A DNA stretch of 64,000 nt from Pontibacter oryzae (lineage in GTDB: Bacteria; Bacteroidota; Bacteroidia; Cytophagales; Hymenobacteraceae): assembly GCF_003576375.1 (NCBI RefSeq), contig NZ_QWGE01000003.1, positions 248,001 through 312,000 of the forward strand, read 5' to 3'. The position numbers and the translations under genes are program-made. The notes beneath the pieces were generated by a model. The model searched no databases. It had not been told where the DNA came from and worked only from the letters and a program-made list of their open reading frames with translations. Positions 3,837 to 11,038 of the stretch are shown piece by piece (position 1 is the first letter of the stretch; every line of letters begins with the position of its first letter).

Positions 3837-4382
3837 TTACGCCGCGAAGCCGGATTTTATCAATGCAAACACGGCGTAATTGATCATATCGCGGTAATTG
3901 GCCTCCACACCTTCTGAGATCAGCGTCTGGCCCTCGTTATCCTCAATCTGCTTGGTACGATACAGCTTCATCAGGATAATATCGGTGATGGAGCTTACGC
4001 GCATGTCGCGCCAGGCCTCACCGTAATCGTGGTTTTTGGCGTTCAGCAGCTTAATGTTCTCCTCGATGTGGTGCGTATACTCGCGCTCCACCTCCTCCGC
4101 CGACAGGCTCTGCGGAGCATTCGCAGGCAGGTTCAGCTGCATTAGCGCAATAACGCAGTAGTTGATGATGCCAACAAACTCGCCGTTAATATCATCCTCC
4201 ACCAGCTGTTTTCCTTTTTCCTGAATGGAGCGGATGCGCTGCGCCTTTATAAAGATCTGATCGGTGATGGAAGGCAGCCGCAGCACGCGCCAGGCAGTGC
4301 CGTAATCCTTGGTTTTCTTCACAAATGTATCTTTGCAGCGCTGTACTACCTGATTATATTCTTGCAGTGTTTGACTAATCAA
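3837..4382 (-). CDS. DUF1599 domain protein
   Basis: The protein is built from two tandem copies of one unit. Each copy has a KTKDYG.AWR.LR..SITD segment (KTKDYGTAWRVLRLPSITDQ, then NHDYGEAWRDMRVSSITDI), followed by a second shared block ending INY.V.AL. This two-copy layout is the DUF1599 family of Bacteroidota; its biochemical role is unknown to me. The longest frame begins with the ATG at 4427, but that would overlap the divergent folP start at 4418. I therefore prefer the TTG at 4382-4380 (protein beginning LISQTLQEYNQ), which leaves a 35-nt divergent spacer. The DUF1599 and folP pairing suggests a conserved neighbourhood. Confidence 0.8.
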   Translation of the reverse strand: MISQTLQEYNQVVQRCKDTFVKKTKDYGTAWRVLRLPSITDQIFIKAQRIRSIQEKGKQLVEDDINGEFVGIINYCVIALMQLNLPANAPQSLSAEEVEREYTHHIEENIKLLNAKNHDYGEAWRDMRVSSITDIILMKLYRTKQIEDNEGQTLISEGVEANYRDMINYAVFALIKSGFAA

Positions 4383-4417
4383 CTTTTTAGCTTTAATTTT
4401 AAAAATAATTGACCTAC

Positions 4418-5284
4418 ATGCCAACATTGGAAGCGAAAGATACGCTTTTTAAGAAAAAATACACACTAAACTGCCGTGGAAAGCTGCTCTCCCTGGAGGC
4501 GCCGCTGGTCATGGGCATCCTTAACCTTACCCCCGACTCTTTTTACCCGGGCAGCCGCCTGAGTTCTGCCGAAGAAGCCGTTGCCAAAGCCGGAAAAATG
4601 CTATCCGATGGAGCCGACATACTTGATATTGGCGGTTACAGCAGCCGGCCCGGCGCTGCAGACATTTCTGCGCAGGAGGAACAGGAACGCATACTCCCGG
4701 CAATACAAGCCATACTTCAAAAATACCCGGAAGCGATTTTATCGGTAGATACGTTTCGTGCTGACGTGGCCGAAGCCGCAGTAAACGCCGGTGCCGCCAT
4801 CATCAACGACATCTCGGGGGGGCTTCTGGATGAGGCCATGTTTGAAACATTGGCGCGCCTGCAGGTGCCTTATATACTGATGCACATGCGCGGCACGCCC
4901 CAAACCATGAGCGGCCTGGCAAAGTATGAGGATGTAACGGTAGAGGTGCTGGACGAGCTGCGCGTGCAGGTAGCCAAGCTGCAACAACTGGGCGTAAAGG
5001 ACATTATCCTGGACCCTGGCTTCGGGTTTGCCAAAACCGTGGAACATAATTTTGAATTGCTTCGCCATTTGGATGATTTGCGTATCTTAGACCTGCCATT
5101 ACTAGTCGGCCTCTCCCGGAAATCCATGGTATACAAAACTCTGGGCATTGAGCAGGCCGATGCCCTAACGGGTACAATAGTGGTAAACACGCTGGCGTTG
5201 ACAAAAGGTGCCGACATTTTGCGCGTACACGACGTAAAAGAAGCGAAGCAAACAATTATACTTTTAGAGAAAGCGAAACTTTGA
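4418..5284 (+). CDS. folP: Dihydropteroate synthase
   Basis: It condenses p-aminobenzoate with the pterin pyrophosphate in folate synthesis and is the target of sulfonamides. The TIM-barrel signature motifs are present: MGILNLTPDSF (32-42), ADILDIGGYSSRPGA (66-80), SVDTF, INDISGG, LMHMRGTP, DPGFGFAKT, GLSRKS and the C-terminal RVHDVKEA. I chose the ATG at 4418; an in-frame TTG at 4409 would add only three residues. Its TGA stop overlaps the TTG start of cdaA by four bases (TTGA, 5281-5284), so the two genes are translationally coupled. Confidence 0.95.
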   Translation: MPTLEAKDTLFKKKYTLNCRGKLLSLEAPLVMGILNLTPDSFYPGSRLSSAEEAVAKAGKMLSDGADILDIGGYSSRPGAADISAQEEQERILPAIQAILQKYPEAILSVDTFRADVAEAAVNAGAAIINDISGGLLDEAMFETLARLQVPYILMHMRGTPQTMSGLAKYEDVTVEVLDELRVQVAKLQQLGVKDIILDPGFGFAKTVEHNFELLRHLDDLRILDLPLLVGLSRKSMVYKTLGIEQADALTGTIVVNTLALTKGADILRVHDVKEAKQTIILLEKAKL

Positions 5285-6646: not shown

Positions 6647-6934
6647 CTAGAATAGGGTTTCACTTACAAACCACATTAGGTAGAGCAGCGCCGGCGCGAT
6701 TAGTAGCAGAATAGTGCCGATATGCACGCGTGTCCACTGTGGGTTCAGTAGCATGCTCAGGTATGCCTCCACCGACAGCAGCAGTGAGAAGTAGAATGCT
6801 ATCTGCAGCAGTGTGTACATAATATCGGCCTCGCCGCGAATACCTGCCGTAGTATAGGCCAGAAACGATATTACCATCCACGACAGCACCGTGCCCAGTA
6901 ACACCTGCCCCGGCTTTATTTTAATGTTATTCAT
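6647..6934 (-). CDS. Small membrane protein of unknown function
   Basis: A 95-residue protein with three predicted transmembrane helices, near 10-30, 38-60 and 70-93. There are few charged residues and no Cys or His cluster. I recognise no family. It is followed after 3 nt by the PLDc_N-type gene. The two small hydrophobic proteins may act together in the inner membrane, but nothing in the sequence proves it. Confidence 0.6.
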   Translation of the reverse strand: MNNIKIKPGQVLLGTVLSWMVISFLAYTTAGIRGEADIMYTLLQIAFYFSLLLSVEAYLSMLLNPQWTRVHIGTILLLIAPALLYLMWFVSETLF

Positions 6935-6975
6935 ACTTTCTGCGGCTTCTTTACCGGTACAAGTTATAAAAAAAC

Positions 6976-7004
6976 AAAGCCACTCCCATAACAGGAGTGG
7001 CTTT
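6976..7004 (-). terminator. Terminator of kbl
   Basis: A perfect 11-bp stem (6976-6986 with 6994-7004, AAAGCCACTCC/GGAGTGGCTTT) with a 7-nt loop. On the minus strand it is followed by TTTG then a T run. It lies 27 nt after the kbl stop. Confidence 0.9.
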
Positions 7005-7030
7005 TCTATACTTGAAGTATGGGTTTACAC

Positions 7031-8221
7031 TTACTTGATCACACCCAGCTCCTTGCCAACTTCCACGAAAGCGGCGATACATTTATCGATGTGCTCTTTG
7101 TCGTGCACGGCGGATAGCTGCACACGGATGCGCGCCTGGCCTTTTGGCACTACCGGGTAGTAGAAACCGATTACGTAAATGCCCTTATCCAACATGCGGG
7201 CGGCAAACTCCTGCGCCAGCGGGGCATCGTAAAGCATAACCGGCACAATCGGGTGGTCGCCGGGCTTAATGTCGAAACCCGCCGCCGTGATCTGCTCACG
7301 GAAGTACTTGGTGTTCCACTCCAGTTTATCGCGCAGCTCAGTGGTAGAGCTCAGCAGGTCCAGCACTGCAATAGATGCACCCACAATAGACGGGGCCAGC
7401 GAGTTAGAGAACAAGTATGGCCGCGAACGCTGGCGCAGCATATCGATGATCTCTTTTCGGCCAGAGGTAAAGCCGCCCATCGCACCGCCAAGCGCCTTGC
7501 CCAGCGTGCCCGTAATGATGTCGATTTTACCCACTACGTTGTGGTACTCGTGCGTGCCGCGGCCTGTTTTGCCCATAAAACCGGAGCTGTGGCAATCATC
7601 CACCATAATCAGGGCTTTATACTTGTCAGCCAACTCCACGATCTTATCCAGCTGGGCCACGGTGCCATCCATCGAGAAAGCGCCATCTGTTACGATAATG
7701 CGGTGTTTTGCACTTTGGGCTTCCTGCAATTTGGCTTCCAGGTCGGCCATGTCGTTGTGGTTGTAGCGGAAGCGCTGCGCCTTGCATAAACGCACACCAT
7801 CAATAATAGAGGCGTGGTTCAGGGCATCAGAGATAATCGCTGACTCAGCATCGAACAGCGGCTCGAACACGCCTCCGTTGGCATCAAAAGCGGCCGCGTA
7901 AAGTATGGTATCCTCGGTGCCCAGAAACTCGGAGATCTTGTGCTCCAGCTCTTTATGTATATCCTGGGTACCGCAGATAAAGCGCACCGAGCTCATGCCG
8001 TAGCCATGCGTATCAATGGCCTCCTTGGCCGCCTCAATTACACGCGGGTGCGCAGACAGGCCCAAGTAGTTGTTGGCACAAAAATTAAGCACATGGTGCA
8101 TTTGCGTGGTATCGATGTCTGCGCCCTGCGGCGTGGTGATAATGCGCTCCTGCTTATACAATCCTGCCTCTTTAATCTCGGCAAGCTGTTGTTCTAGGTC
8201 TGGTTTTAAAGTCTCGTACAT
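7031..8221 (-). CDS. kbl: Glycine C-acetyltransferase (2-amino-3-ketobutyrate CoA ligase)
   Basis: A PLP enzyme of the alpha-oxoamine synthase family that splits 2-amino-3-oxobutyrate with CoA into glycine and acetyl-CoA, the second step of threonine breakdown. The 396-residue length is normal. [14 protein letters not shown] is near 46-59, VRFICGTQ at 79-86, the PLP-pairing Asp and His in VDDCHSSGF (about 207-215), and the Schiff-base Lys in GTLGKALGG at 242. The first-step enzyme, threonine dehydrogenase, is encoded divergently at 9886-10860 with one repetitive gene between them, which supports Kbl over the related KAS or BioF enzymes. Confidence 0.95.
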
Positions 8222-8272
8222 AGTTTCGTTTCTCGTTATACGTTGCTCGTTGTTTTCTCTTTTATAGTATGA

Positions 8273-9499
8273 TCACAGGCCGGTCGCCTCGCCGGTATCG
8301 TCGGGCTTTGGCGGTGGCCTGCGTATGATGGGCCGTGGCCGCGCGGGCTTCGGCGTTGGGTTTTCTGCAGCTGTGTCGGTTTTCTCACGTGCCGCTTTAT
8401 TTTCCGCTTGATCCATACTTGCTTCCCCTTCCCTTTCTTGGGCAGGCTTTTGCAGGGCCGCTGGCCGCTTTATGACCGGCCTTTGGCGCGGTAGCTTTGG
8501 TGTTTCCTCCGTTGGCGCGGCTATACTTTGAGCTTCCTCCGCAGGGTTGTCGTCTATAGGCTTAGGCGGTTCTGCTGCTGGTTTTTGCAGGGCTGTTGAC
8601 CGTTTAATAACTGGGCGCGGGCGAATAGCAGGTTTAGCGGCAGACTCATTTTCAGGCTTTTGCTCCGGGGCTTTTTCCGGTTGCTGCAAGGCGGTAGGCC
8701 TTTTGATAACCGGCCTTGGGCGCGGCGCTTTTGGCTGCTCCTCGATAGTACTTGCATCCGGCGCAGTTGGCTCAGGCTTGGCTTCCGCATCGGGTGTTGG
8801 CTTTTGCAGCGCAGCCGGGCGCTTTATAACAGGGCGCGGCCTGGCTGGTTTGGCGTCAGTGGGCTCCTGGGCGGCTGGGTTTATACTTGGTTCAGCAGGT
8901 GCTGCGGCATCTTTTTCCTCTTCTGGTTTTTGCAGCGCGGCCGGGCGCTTAATCATCGGTCTTGGCCGTGCCGCAGGCTTAGTCGCCTCGCTATTTTCAG
9001 GAACGGAGGCAGTTTCATCCGCTTCGGTTTTCGGCTTAGCTATAACCGGCCGCTTCACCACTGGTCTAGGGCGCGGGGCTGGTGCCTCGGTGGTACTAGC
9101 TGCCTCAGCGGCTGGCTTCTCCAATGCTTCGCCCTCGGCAGGTTTTCGGATGGCTGCAGGGCGGCGCACCGCTGGCCTTGGCTTTGGAGCGCTTTCCGCA
9201 GGTGTGGCGGCAGGTGGTTGCTGCGTCGGTGCTGTCTCGGCAGGTGTTGGCTTAGCGGCTGCAACTGCCCTACGGGCTGCCGGCCGTGGCGCCGCCGCTG
9301 GCGCTGCTTTAGGGACATCCTCCTCCGCCAAGTGGTACCGCAGGCGCACATCGTTCAGCACCATCTTTAGCTGCACCTGAAAGCTGTTGGGGTGCATTTG
9401 TGCATACATCTCCTGCCATGCCACAAAACGCATGGGTTCTGCAGCCGCAAAAGCCGCCTTATTTATCCGCTTCTTTATAAGATACTCTTCAAACGTCAT
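8273..9499 (-). CDS. Pro/Ala/Arg-rich repeat protein with eight RPRPVIKRPAALQKP-type motifs
   Basis: A 408-residue protein. Residues 1-60 look folded: alpha-helical, with aromatic residues and a QVQLKMVLNDVRLRYHLAEED segment near the end. From about 65 it is low complexity. A basic motif of consensus RPRPVIKRPAALQKP recurs eight times, starting near residues 107, 143, 178, 220, 260, 293, 338 and 387. The copies are separated by acidic, Ala/Pro/Glu-rich linkers, so spacing is 33-49 residues. There is no signal peptide or membrane segment, so it is probably cytosolic. The alternation of basic beads and acidic linkers suggests an intrinsically disordered multivalent binder, perhaps of RNA, DNA or the ribosome (inference). 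I do not recognise the family. It lies 51 nt upstream of kbl on the same strand. Confidence 0.75.
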   Translation of the reverse strand: MTFEEYLIKKRINKAAFAAAEPMRFVAWQEMYAQMHPNSFQVQLKMVLNDVRLRYHLAEEDVPKAAPAAAPRPAARRAVAAAKPTPAETAPTQQPPAATPAESAPKPRPAVRRPAAIRKPAEGEALEKPAAEAASTTEAPAPRPRPVVKRPVIAKPKTEADETASVPENSEATKPAARPRPMIKRPAALQKPEEEKDAAAPAEPSINPAAQEPTDAKPARPRPVIKRPAALQKPTPDAEAKPEPTAPDASTIEEQPKAPRPRPVIKRPTALQQPEKAPEQKPENESAAKPAIRPRPVIKRSTALQKPAAEPPKPIDDNPAEEAQSIAAPTEETPKLPRQRPVIKRPAALQKPAQEREGEASMDQAENKAAREKTDTAAENPTPKPARPRPIIRRPPPKPDDTGEATGL

Positions 9500-9583
9500 G
9501 CAATACAGCCTTACTATGATGCGGTTTACGGTTACAGCCTGCTACAGGCTACTAAACTCATGTCTTGTATCAACTTCTTAGTA

Positions 9584-9591
9584 CAAAGATA
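9584..9591 (-). promoter_or_regulatory. Probable promoter -7 element of the repeat-protein gene
   Basis: On the minus strand the sequence reads TATCTTTG, a perfect match to the Bacteroidota -7 consensus TAnnTTTG, about 85 nt upstream of the ATG at 9499. I see no clear TTTG -33 element at the usual distance. Confidence 0.5.
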
Positions 9592-9742
9592 AGAAAATCC
9601 GCGGGCTGCACTTGGTTCATGTTACGCCTGTTTTAACTGTATTATCTAATCATCAAATCTGCCTCAAACGCTTTCCTGCGCCACATGGCTCGCCTACCTT
9701 TATTGCCAAGGTGAATACAGGTTAAAGTTAGATTAGTTGCAT

Positions 9743-9771
9743 GAGAGCGCTTGCTCCTGGCAGGCGCTCTC
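9743..9771. other. Hairpin in the divergent spacer before tdh
   Basis: GAGAGCGC (9743-9750) pairs with GCGCTCTC (9764-9771) around a 13-nt loop that can add TGC/GCA pairs. On the plus strand TTATTATAA follows. It belongs to no neighbouring gene end, because both flanking genes start here. It could terminate a short unannotated transcript. Otherwise I see nothing in 9500-9885 except the two promoters. Confidence 0.45.
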
Positions 9772-9835
9772 TTATTATAAACGTTCCTGCTGTTTACGCA
9801 CTAGGTCCTGCATGCTTTCTTCGGAAGTATATTTT

Positions 9836-9863
9836 TTGGATTGCACCGAATTCGGTTACTTTG
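9836..9863 (+). promoter_or_regulatory. Promoter of the threonine dehydrogenase gene
   Basis: TTG at 9836-9838, a 17-nt spacer and TTACTTTG at 9856-9863, close to the TAnnTTTG -7 consensus. Transcription would start near 9870, about 15 nt before the ATG at 9886. Confidence 0.6.
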
Positions 9864-9885
9864 TACAAAGATTTTGATTTAGCTT

Positions 9886-10860
9886 ATGGCAAACACAAGT
9901 GACACGGTATTGGTGATTGGTGCCTGCGGGCAACTGGGCTCAGAACTAACAATGGAACTGCGCCGCATGTATGGGGAGGCAAATGTAGTGGCAGCAGATA
10001 TCGCACCGCCAAAACAAGCTGACTTGCGCGATTCGGGCCCATTTGAGAAAGTGGATGTGCTGGATACAAACGTGCTGGCCAGCATAGCCGGCAAGTACAA
10101 ATTTAAGCAAATATATCACTTGGCAGCAGTGCTCTCGGCAACCGGCGAAAAGAATCCGAAGTTTGCCTGGAAACTGAACATGGATGGCCTGTTTAACGTC
10201 TTGGACCTGGCTCTGGAGCATAAGGTAGGCAGTGTCTACTGGCCTAGCTCTATTGCCTGCTTTGGCCCAAGCACGCCACGCCAGAACACACCGCAGCAAA
10301 CCATCATGGACCCAAACACTGTGTACGGCATCAGCAAGCAGGCTGGTGAGCGCTGGTGTGAGTATTACTTCCAGAAGTATGGCTTGGATGTGCGCAGCCT
10401 GCGCTACCCTGGCCTAATCGGCTACAAAGCACTGCCTGGCGGCGGCACCACTGATTATGCCGTGGATATTTACCACAAAGCCCTGGATGGCGAGGCGTTT
10501 GAGTGCTTCCTGAGCGAGGATACGTACCTGCCGATGATGTACATGCCCGATGCCCTGAAAGCAACTATTGACCTGATGCATGCCCCGGCAGAGCAGGTAA
10601 AAGTGCGCGACTCTTATAACCTGAGCGCCATGAGCTTCTCGCCACAGGAAATAGCGGCCTCCATTAAAAAGCACATTCCGGATTTCGAGATCATCTATAA
10701 ACCAGACTCGCGCCAGCAGATTGCCGACTCCTGGCCACAAAGTATAGACGACAGCGCTGCCCAACAGGATTGGGGCTGGAACCCAAGCTATACCCTGGAT
10801 GCCATGACCGAGGACATGCTGCTAAACCTTAAAAGGATGAAACAGGAGCAAACAGCTTAA
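9886..10860 (+). CDS. tdh: L-threonine 3-dehydrogenase, short-chain (epimerase-like) type
   Basis: A 324-residue NAD-dependent extended SDR protein. The Rossmann motif IGACGQLGSE is at 11-20, an Asp for NAD ribose at VVAAD, HLAA near 78-81, and the catalytic Tyr147/Lys151 in VYGISK, with Ser near 121-122. The sequence follows the epimerase-like threonine dehydrogenases rather than the zinc-dependent alcohol-dehydrogenase type of E. coli. The segment LPGGGTTDYAVDIYHKALDG after the catalytic site is characteristic. It oxidises threonine to 2-amino-3-oxobutyrate, the substrate of kbl encoded divergently at 7031-8221. Confidence 0.9.
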   Translation: MANTSDTVLVIGACGQLGSELTMELRRMYGEANVVAADIAPPKQADLRDSGPFEKVDVLDTNVLASIAGKYKFKQIYHLAAVLSATGEKNPKFAWKLNMDGLFNVLDLALEHKVGSVYWPSSIACFGPSTPRQNTPQQTIMDPNTVYGISKQAGERWCEYYFQKYGLDVRSLRYPGLIGYKALPGGGTTDYAVDIYHKALDGEAFECFLSEDTYLPMMYMPDALKATIDLMHAPAEQVKVRDSYNLSAMSFSPQEIAASIKKHIPDFEIIYKPDSRQQIADSWPQSIDDSAAQQDWGWNPSYTLDAMTEDMLLNLKRMKQEQTA

Positions 10861-10886
10861 ATCTGGCTGCATAGTATAAAGTATAA

Positions 10887-10922
10887 GCAAGAGAGGCGAT
10901 GCGAAAGTATCGCCTCTCTTGC
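10887..10922 (+). terminator. Terminator of tdh
   Basis: A perfect 14-bp stem (10887-10900 with 10909-10922) with an 8-nt loop, followed by TTTACAGG. It lies 26 nt after the tdh stop. Confidence 0.85.
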
Positions 10923-11038
10923 TTTACAGGCAGCCTCTAGTTGGCAAACTGGCGCAACGTATAAATTGCTTTCCAAACCTGCACGCGCGTTACAAGTATA
11001 ATCTCCTGGTCACTCCTATTACCCTCAAAATCCTGAGC

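Follow-up and report, generated by a model that had tools for sequence, protein, structure and literature searches.

Purifying selection acts much more strongly on the eight basic, proline-rich "beads" of a 408-residue Pontibacter oryzae protein than on the acidic linkers between them. The gene lies in the window, the whole 64,000-nucleotide stretch of contig NZ_QWGE01000003.1 that was analysed. We tentatively favor the reading that the protein is a small Bacteroidota adaptor, in which the bead would be a docking motif for a partner and would have been multiplied in several lineages for valency. A helical N-terminal domain of about 60 residues (the N-domain) would do the core job, binding or oligomerising, and the C-terminal bead, a basic peptide with proline-flanked hydrophobic residues, would serve as a short linear docking motif. 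Additional beads would allow one molecule to hold several partners, or one multi-site partner by avidity, and the acidic, variable and disordered spacers would be links of which only solubility and length are needed.

Architecture of the protein and constraint on its beads

The ORF (Table 1) has a computed pI of 9.8 and a net charge of +15, lacks cysteine, and has Pontibacter proteins as its best named relatives. In the AlphaFold2 model of the whole protein (mean pLDDT 52), helices were placed at residues 3-9, 14-20, 22-35 and 37-58, and secondary structure was absent beyond residue 58, where confidence was low. This agrees with the original prediction, made from the sequence alone, of a small N-terminal domain followed by a disordered tail. 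Within the tail, the highest confidence was found in the region of bead 8 (block means of 75 and 69, residues 381-400). The N-domain modeled alone reached a mean pLDDT of 71, and its predicted fold is regarded as moderately certain.

Table 1. Positions of the bead gene, its parts and its neighbors in the window
Feature	Position	Strand	Basis
Whole ORF, N-domain and eight-bead tail	8273..9499	-	ORF translation, profile scan
N-domain, residues 1-60, four predicted helices	9320..9499	-	AlphaFold2, alignment
Bead 1, residues 104-116	9152..9190	-	Profile scan
Bead 2, residues 141-153	9041..9079	-	Profile scan
Bead 3, residues 176-188	8936..8974	-	Profile scan
Bead 4, residues 218-230	8810..8848	-	Profile scan
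Bead 5, residues 258-270	8690..8728	-	Profile scan
Bead 6, residues 291-303	8591..8629	-	Profile scan
Bead 7, residues 336-348	8456..8494	-	Profile scan
Bead 8, C-terminal, residues 385-397	8309..8347	-	Profile scan
kbl, glycine C-acetyltransferase, 51 bp downstream of the ORF	7031..8221	-	Family models, position
tdh-like gene, NAD-dependent epimerase family, divergent, 386 bp upstream	9886..10860	+	Family models, position
TATCTTTG, fits the -7 promoter element TAnnTTTG, 84 nt upstream of the ATG	9584..9591	-	Consensus match

A profile trained on the family detected eight beads in the tail, with successive spacings of 37, 35, 42, 40, 33, 45 and 49 residues. By mismatch counting, a repeat test adopted after the result of a BLOSUM-similarity test had been seen, the tail holds 8 copies of a 9-mer at no more than 3 mismatches, and 200 shuffles reached 4 at most. 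The BLOSUM test gave 12 against a shuffle maximum of 11, a poor separation because the Ala/Pro-rich linkers score as repeats. Eight copies of a basic motif at intervals of 33-49 residues, as originally described, were thus recovered. When a bead-linker segment was used as the query against the protein's own genome, all seven matches fell inside this ORF and none elsewhere.

The N-domain query matched 62 of 200 genomes of the host family, comprising the genome of the window itself, 49 others of its genus and 12 spread over three further genera; none of the 20 non-matching genomes listed (118 further genomes were non-matching) was of the same genus. The search for the motif in related genomes thus returned homologues carrying it and left the prediction standing. 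Bead statistics were collected from 100 Hymenobacteraceae loci, which reduce to 62 distinct proteins with 435 beads, 4 to 8 in each (4, 5, 6, 7 and 8 beads in 1, 3, 9, 30 and 19 proteins, respectively). The Hymenobacteraceae consensus is [PA][PA]RPRP[VI][IMVF][KR]RP, in short form RPRPVIKRP. The bead windows (5,655 residues) contain 34% Pro, 30.5% K+R and, to three decimals, 0.0% D+E, the last figure being partly circular since the same profile had selected the beads; the linkers contain 18.9% D+E. Information within the bead peaks at a hydrophobic pair, V/I followed by I/M/V/F, with relative entropies of 3.6 and 3.9 bits; the two arginines reach 3.6 and 3.5.

Among these Hymenobacteraceae proteins, dN/dS was 0.043 for bead cores, 0.087 for the N-domain and 0.202 for linkers, based on 133 of the 1,891 pairs among the 62 proteins (60-97% identity), pairs which are non-independent and in which misaligned linkers may raise the linker dN. 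The 315 codons in columns falling in different classes in the two proteins were set apart. The dS values were alike (1.27 for beads, 1.32 for linkers), and gaps affected 7.1% of the residues in linkers against 1.4% of those in beads. The original prediction that the beads are under selection is borne out by these ratios, and divergence of the beads at the rate of the linkers, named there as the result that would speak against it, is not what was found, the beads being far slower. To call them nearly constant is slightly generous, as bead 1 (KPRPAVRRPAAIR) and several others are substituted.

Between bead copies within one gene, dN/dS is not computable because dS is saturated: pS was 0.76 (0.78 in the window gene), and synonymous codons vary freely among the eight window beads. 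This saturation indicates that the bead copies are old and that their sameness has been maintained; recent tandem duplication as its source is ruled out in Hymenobacteraceae. Near-identical tandem units do occur in some lineages (L143, L146, L150), as would be expected if the tail were a neutral or near-neutral low-complexity appendage built by tandem duplication, but the roughly fivefold lower dN/dS of beads and the synonymous saturation in Hymenobacteraceae leave that account very improbable.

The N-domain family and its tails

Judged from sequence comparison, the N-domain defines a Bacteroidota family for which no earlier description was found. Its profile matched 171 of the 291 genomes searched in the order, as well as 12 of 395 genomes drawn from the phylum, and a broader profile matched 32 of 395 genomes drawn from the class; these draws share some genomes. 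The named matches beyond Hymenobacteraceae were a Cyclobacteriaceae MAG, one Bacteroidetes MAG and Sphingobacteriales MAGs, which include Daejeonella, Sphingobacterium and Pedobacter, so that the family reaches Sphingobacteriaceae. The group can do without the protein, since whole genera of the host family and other genomes of the order gave no match. Viral contigs yielded no match. K10, I12, S39, F40, N49 and R52 were invariant in the N-domains of 20 diverse family members.

Searches of Pfam, NCBIfam and PHROG with the whole protein found no relatives (Pfam none at E up to 1; the best NCBIfam match, at E 0.25, was far under the model cut-off), and the 20 N-domain members gave weak single-member matches to family models only (best E 0.0072 and 0.0099). 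PDB sequence searches with the N-domain gave E values of 0.041 or higher throughout; 8ows and 28lu, looked at more closely, had E values of 0.14 and 0.43, the second alignment spanning just 31 positions. The single Foldseek match to the N-domain model (pLDDT 71) was a Toxoplasma mitoribosome chain (E 3.6, Z 4.9). In an open-access library, we found no paper with the string RPRPVIKRP and, among the matches listed, no description of the protein, family or operon.

By length, 143 distinct proteins fell into 31 bare (up to 75 residues), 14 single-bead (76-112) and 98 multi-bead (over 112) members, counts that are not frequencies, as the sample was picked for diversity and strong matches. All 31 proteins of the shortest class are bare and end just past the N-domain, at about 60 residues. 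All 14 distinct proteins of 81-112 residues end, as judged by eye, in one bead-like basic, proline and hydrophobic stretch, examples being KPVMRPKPKMN, KPIMRPKIN, KPVFKRPS and ARPVLKRPVIEKKP. The count of copy-number variation proposed with the original prediction thus gave none, one or several beads, with the family as a whole ranging from 0 to about 14. This range supports the multivalent design in the original suggestion of multivalent binding to a nucleic acid or the ribosome, or of phase-separating behavior. Whatever the N-domain does, it can do without a bead, which is missing from 31 of the 143 distinct members. One bead suffices in the short relatives and none is present in the bare ones, which argues that the core function lies with the N-domain and that the beads add contacts.

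Outside Hymenobacteraceae, beads have the same letters within a protein and a spelling that differs by lineage: ARPVFKKK and VRPVIKPK; RPVMRPVVKK; AKPIFKRP; LKPKIPG (also SALKPKIPG); KPKMVRPKI; GFKPRFNMK and GFTPKFRAA; KAPIKLAPG; KKLPLKAKP; PPLKRPIMK. The common grammar is a nearly acid-free segment of proline, Lys/Arg and a hydrophobic pair, set on acidic linkers. In bead copies, 27 of 33 tails beat all 200 shuffles and six did not (L045, L071, L136, L138, L189, L197); in L138 no repeat was found by this test. The matched windows were free of D/E in 28 of the 33 tails (exceptions L147, L149, L132, L187 and L138).

In families f5 (KPARPVLKRPVIEKK and KPARPVMRPVVKK) and f19 (ARPKMVKPK and KPKMVRPKI), the bead of single-bead members is spelled much like the beads of multi-bead ones, and in f18 a bare protein (L210) occurs alongside many-bead members. 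From these spellings, the ancestral tail probably held one C-terminal bead that was multiplied separately in several lineages; loss of beads in the bare members would be a rival account. A fuller version, in which one ancestral docking peptide was multiplied independently while its spelling co-evolved with, or was loosely read by, a general groove such as that of DnaK or a ribosome-associated factor, we consider unlikely. For the preferred docking reading, too, it is not obvious that spellings as different as RPRPVIKRP, GFKPRFNMK, SALKPKIPG and KAPIKLAPG would fit one common groove.

Candidate partners and known systems

The beads could instead bind RNA or the ribosome, with the pattern of basic beads and acidic linkers driving RNA-dependent condensates. 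The acid-free basic beads on acidic linkers and the overall charge and pI of the protein are consistent with this. Charge blockiness points the same way, as it exceeds that of shuffled sequences in the tail of the 408-residue protein (z 3.6) and in the remaining Hymenobacteraceae tails that were analysed (z 2.2 to 4.7). A precedent is Rho of B. thetaiotaomicron, whose RNA-driven condensation depends on two basic motifs acting together (PMC13269538). However, blockiness would be expected throughout if charge-driven coacervation were conserved, and it is no higher than, or lower than, in shuffled sequences in L132, L136, L150, L190, L195 and L197; something other than blocky charge alone must therefore be conserved in the family. 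Many tails are near neutral owing to their acidic linkers, and the hydrophobic positions of the bead are conserved as strongly as the arginines. We regard binding to RNA, the main rival reading, as somewhat unlikely. The hydrophobic pair would suit a protein groove at least as well, and favors it over plain nucleic-acid binding, because the latter would not demand V/I followed by I/M/V/F.

For the docking adaptor that we prefer, DnaK is a lead as candidate partner, since RPKPIFRPRP in arasin1 (PMC7736402, Table 1) resembles KPIFKRP beads and DnaK binds short hydrophobic peptides of the proline-rich antimicrobial peptide (PrAMP) group (PMC8864165). PrAMPs are defined by at least 25% Pro and a net charge of at least +1 (PMC7736402, Box 1), together with antimicrobial activity and an intracellular target, DnaK or the 70S ribosome; the bead windows, at 34% Pro and basic, fall within the limits on proline and charge, whereas the whole tail of the 408-residue protein, at 21% Pro, does not reach the former. 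PrAMPs such as Bac7, arasin and drosocin (PMC7736402) share with the beads PRP motifs, a cationic character and a hydrophobic residue beside the PRP. DnaK favors aliphatic and aromatic residues, and its groove accommodates PrAMPs (PMC8864165). A more specific proposal is that the beads mimic such peptides in the DnaK substrate groove, which would make the protein a multivalent adaptor or sponge for Hsp70, and a loose binding rule would permit the drift in bead spelling among lineages. The likeness is one of composition, the beads being internal segments of a larger protein, and leucine, given as the most important residue for DnaK (PMC8864165), is rare in the Hymenobacteraceae bead core. Such an Hsp70 adaptor or sponge appears improbable.

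Several known systems resemble the bead protein in part. The disordered region of Rho with its KE motifs is likewise from Bacteroidota, and has short conserved basic motifs that act together in a disordered, partly acidic region (PMC13269538). It differs in that Rho is a termination factor and combines one acidic motif with two basic motifs that are not alike. The bead family instead multiplies a single motif, to as many as about 14 copies, and its small leading domain is unrelated. The C-terminal scaffold of RNase E in BR-bodies is also a disordered bacterial tail that scaffolds partners. The RNase E tail has distinct partner sites, whereas the beads are copies of one motif in a protein with no enzyme domain. 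AT-hooks have a GRP core recognized by the Pfam AT-hook model; an AT-hook protein was rejected here, given no Pfam match at E up to 1 and a bead core of RPRP without Gly.

Disordered scaffolds with arrays of short linear motifs likewise combine conserved motifs with fast-evolving spacers, and repeated short docking motifs are a classic route to scaffolds and condensates in eukaryotes. The bead family differs from such arrays in its copy number, its lineage-specific spelling and its occurrence within one bacterial family. Motif arrays in disordered proteins are already known, and the bacterial series from 0 to about 14 with lineage spelling is a new variation on them; few bacterial cases with graded natural copy number are known to us. 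If the docking reading is true, the family would offer a natural series of valencies for one bacterial interaction. Because bare, single-bead and multi-bead versions exist in one family, exchanging them would be a simple way to test what valency does. As the family is common in the order and nameless in the libraries searched, finding a partner would annotate a gene of many Bacteroidota genomes.

Genomic context and promoter

As originally stated, the ORF lies between two threonine-catabolism genes; the gene at 9886-10860 scored above the cut-off of no equivalog model, and its naming as L-threonine dehydrogenase is an inference from its position next to kbl. In seven distant loci (L131, L148, L155, L157, L158, L176, L202), kbl directly follows the gene in the same orientation, separated by -1 to 24 bp, and tdh is divergent in the first six of these. 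The gap to kbl is larger in L146 (163 bp) and L191 (1,697 bp). In Sphingobacteriaceae-like loci, tdh is upstream on the same strand at a gap of 833-1253 bp, which is filled by a YebC-like gene in L132, the sole locus checked (Pfam).

This attractive synteny, together with a Beta_elim_lyase gene as divergent neighbor in two loci of another genus, would fit an accessory role in threonine catabolism, exerted on Kbl and Tdh. Presence and absence of the N-domain does not track tdh, however. In 291 genomes, both were found in 109, the N-domain only in 62, tdh only in 84 and neither in 36 (thresholds 1e-3 and 1e-70), with an odds ratio of 0.75 and a Fisher p of 0.31 in a test that ignores relatedness. 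Other members adjoin ClC channel, cdaA-like, nuoC-like or HtrA-like genes. Given the lack of support from presence and absence, a role in this pathway was set aside as quite improbable.

The element in Table 1 fits the consensus of the Bacteroidota -7 promoter element. TANNTTTG occurs in the 250 bp preceding each of the 62 distinct family genes examined, against a shuffle mean of 5.15 of 62, and a TTG 17-23 bases before it was seen in only 1 of the 62 genes. On this pattern, the gene likely has its own promoter. An Rfam scan of 6900-11000 gave nothing near the gathering score.

Some further features of these loci were noted. The last Pontibacter bead (bead 8 in the window, and family C-termini) often runs into a PPP stretch, RRPPPKP, presumably an EF-P-dependent stall site. 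A TACO1/YebC-like gene lies directly 5' of the proline-rich bead gene at L132:3256-3981 and in the equivalent place in L136; YebC proteins are reported to aid translation of proline stretches. The Beta_elim_lyase (threonine-aldolase-like) genes divergent from bare members are at L074:1695-2738 and L078:1739-2764, assigned by Pfam for one of the two, and are possibly a second link to glycine formation from threonine. In L139 and L147, of one other family, the bead gene comes after the ClC chloride channel gene. A patatin-like (phospholipase) gene, in place of the bead gene, lies between kbl and tdh in 5 of 5 loci (L164, L165, L166, L168, L169; by eye, with Pfam for one) from host-family genera g4 and g5, which gave no N-domain match and which we take to be Hymenobacter or its kin. 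Elsewhere in the window, a 196-residue ORF (3837-4427, minus strand) apparently holds two copies of one unit, KDYGTAWRVLRLPSITDQI and HDYGEAWRDMRVSSITDII.
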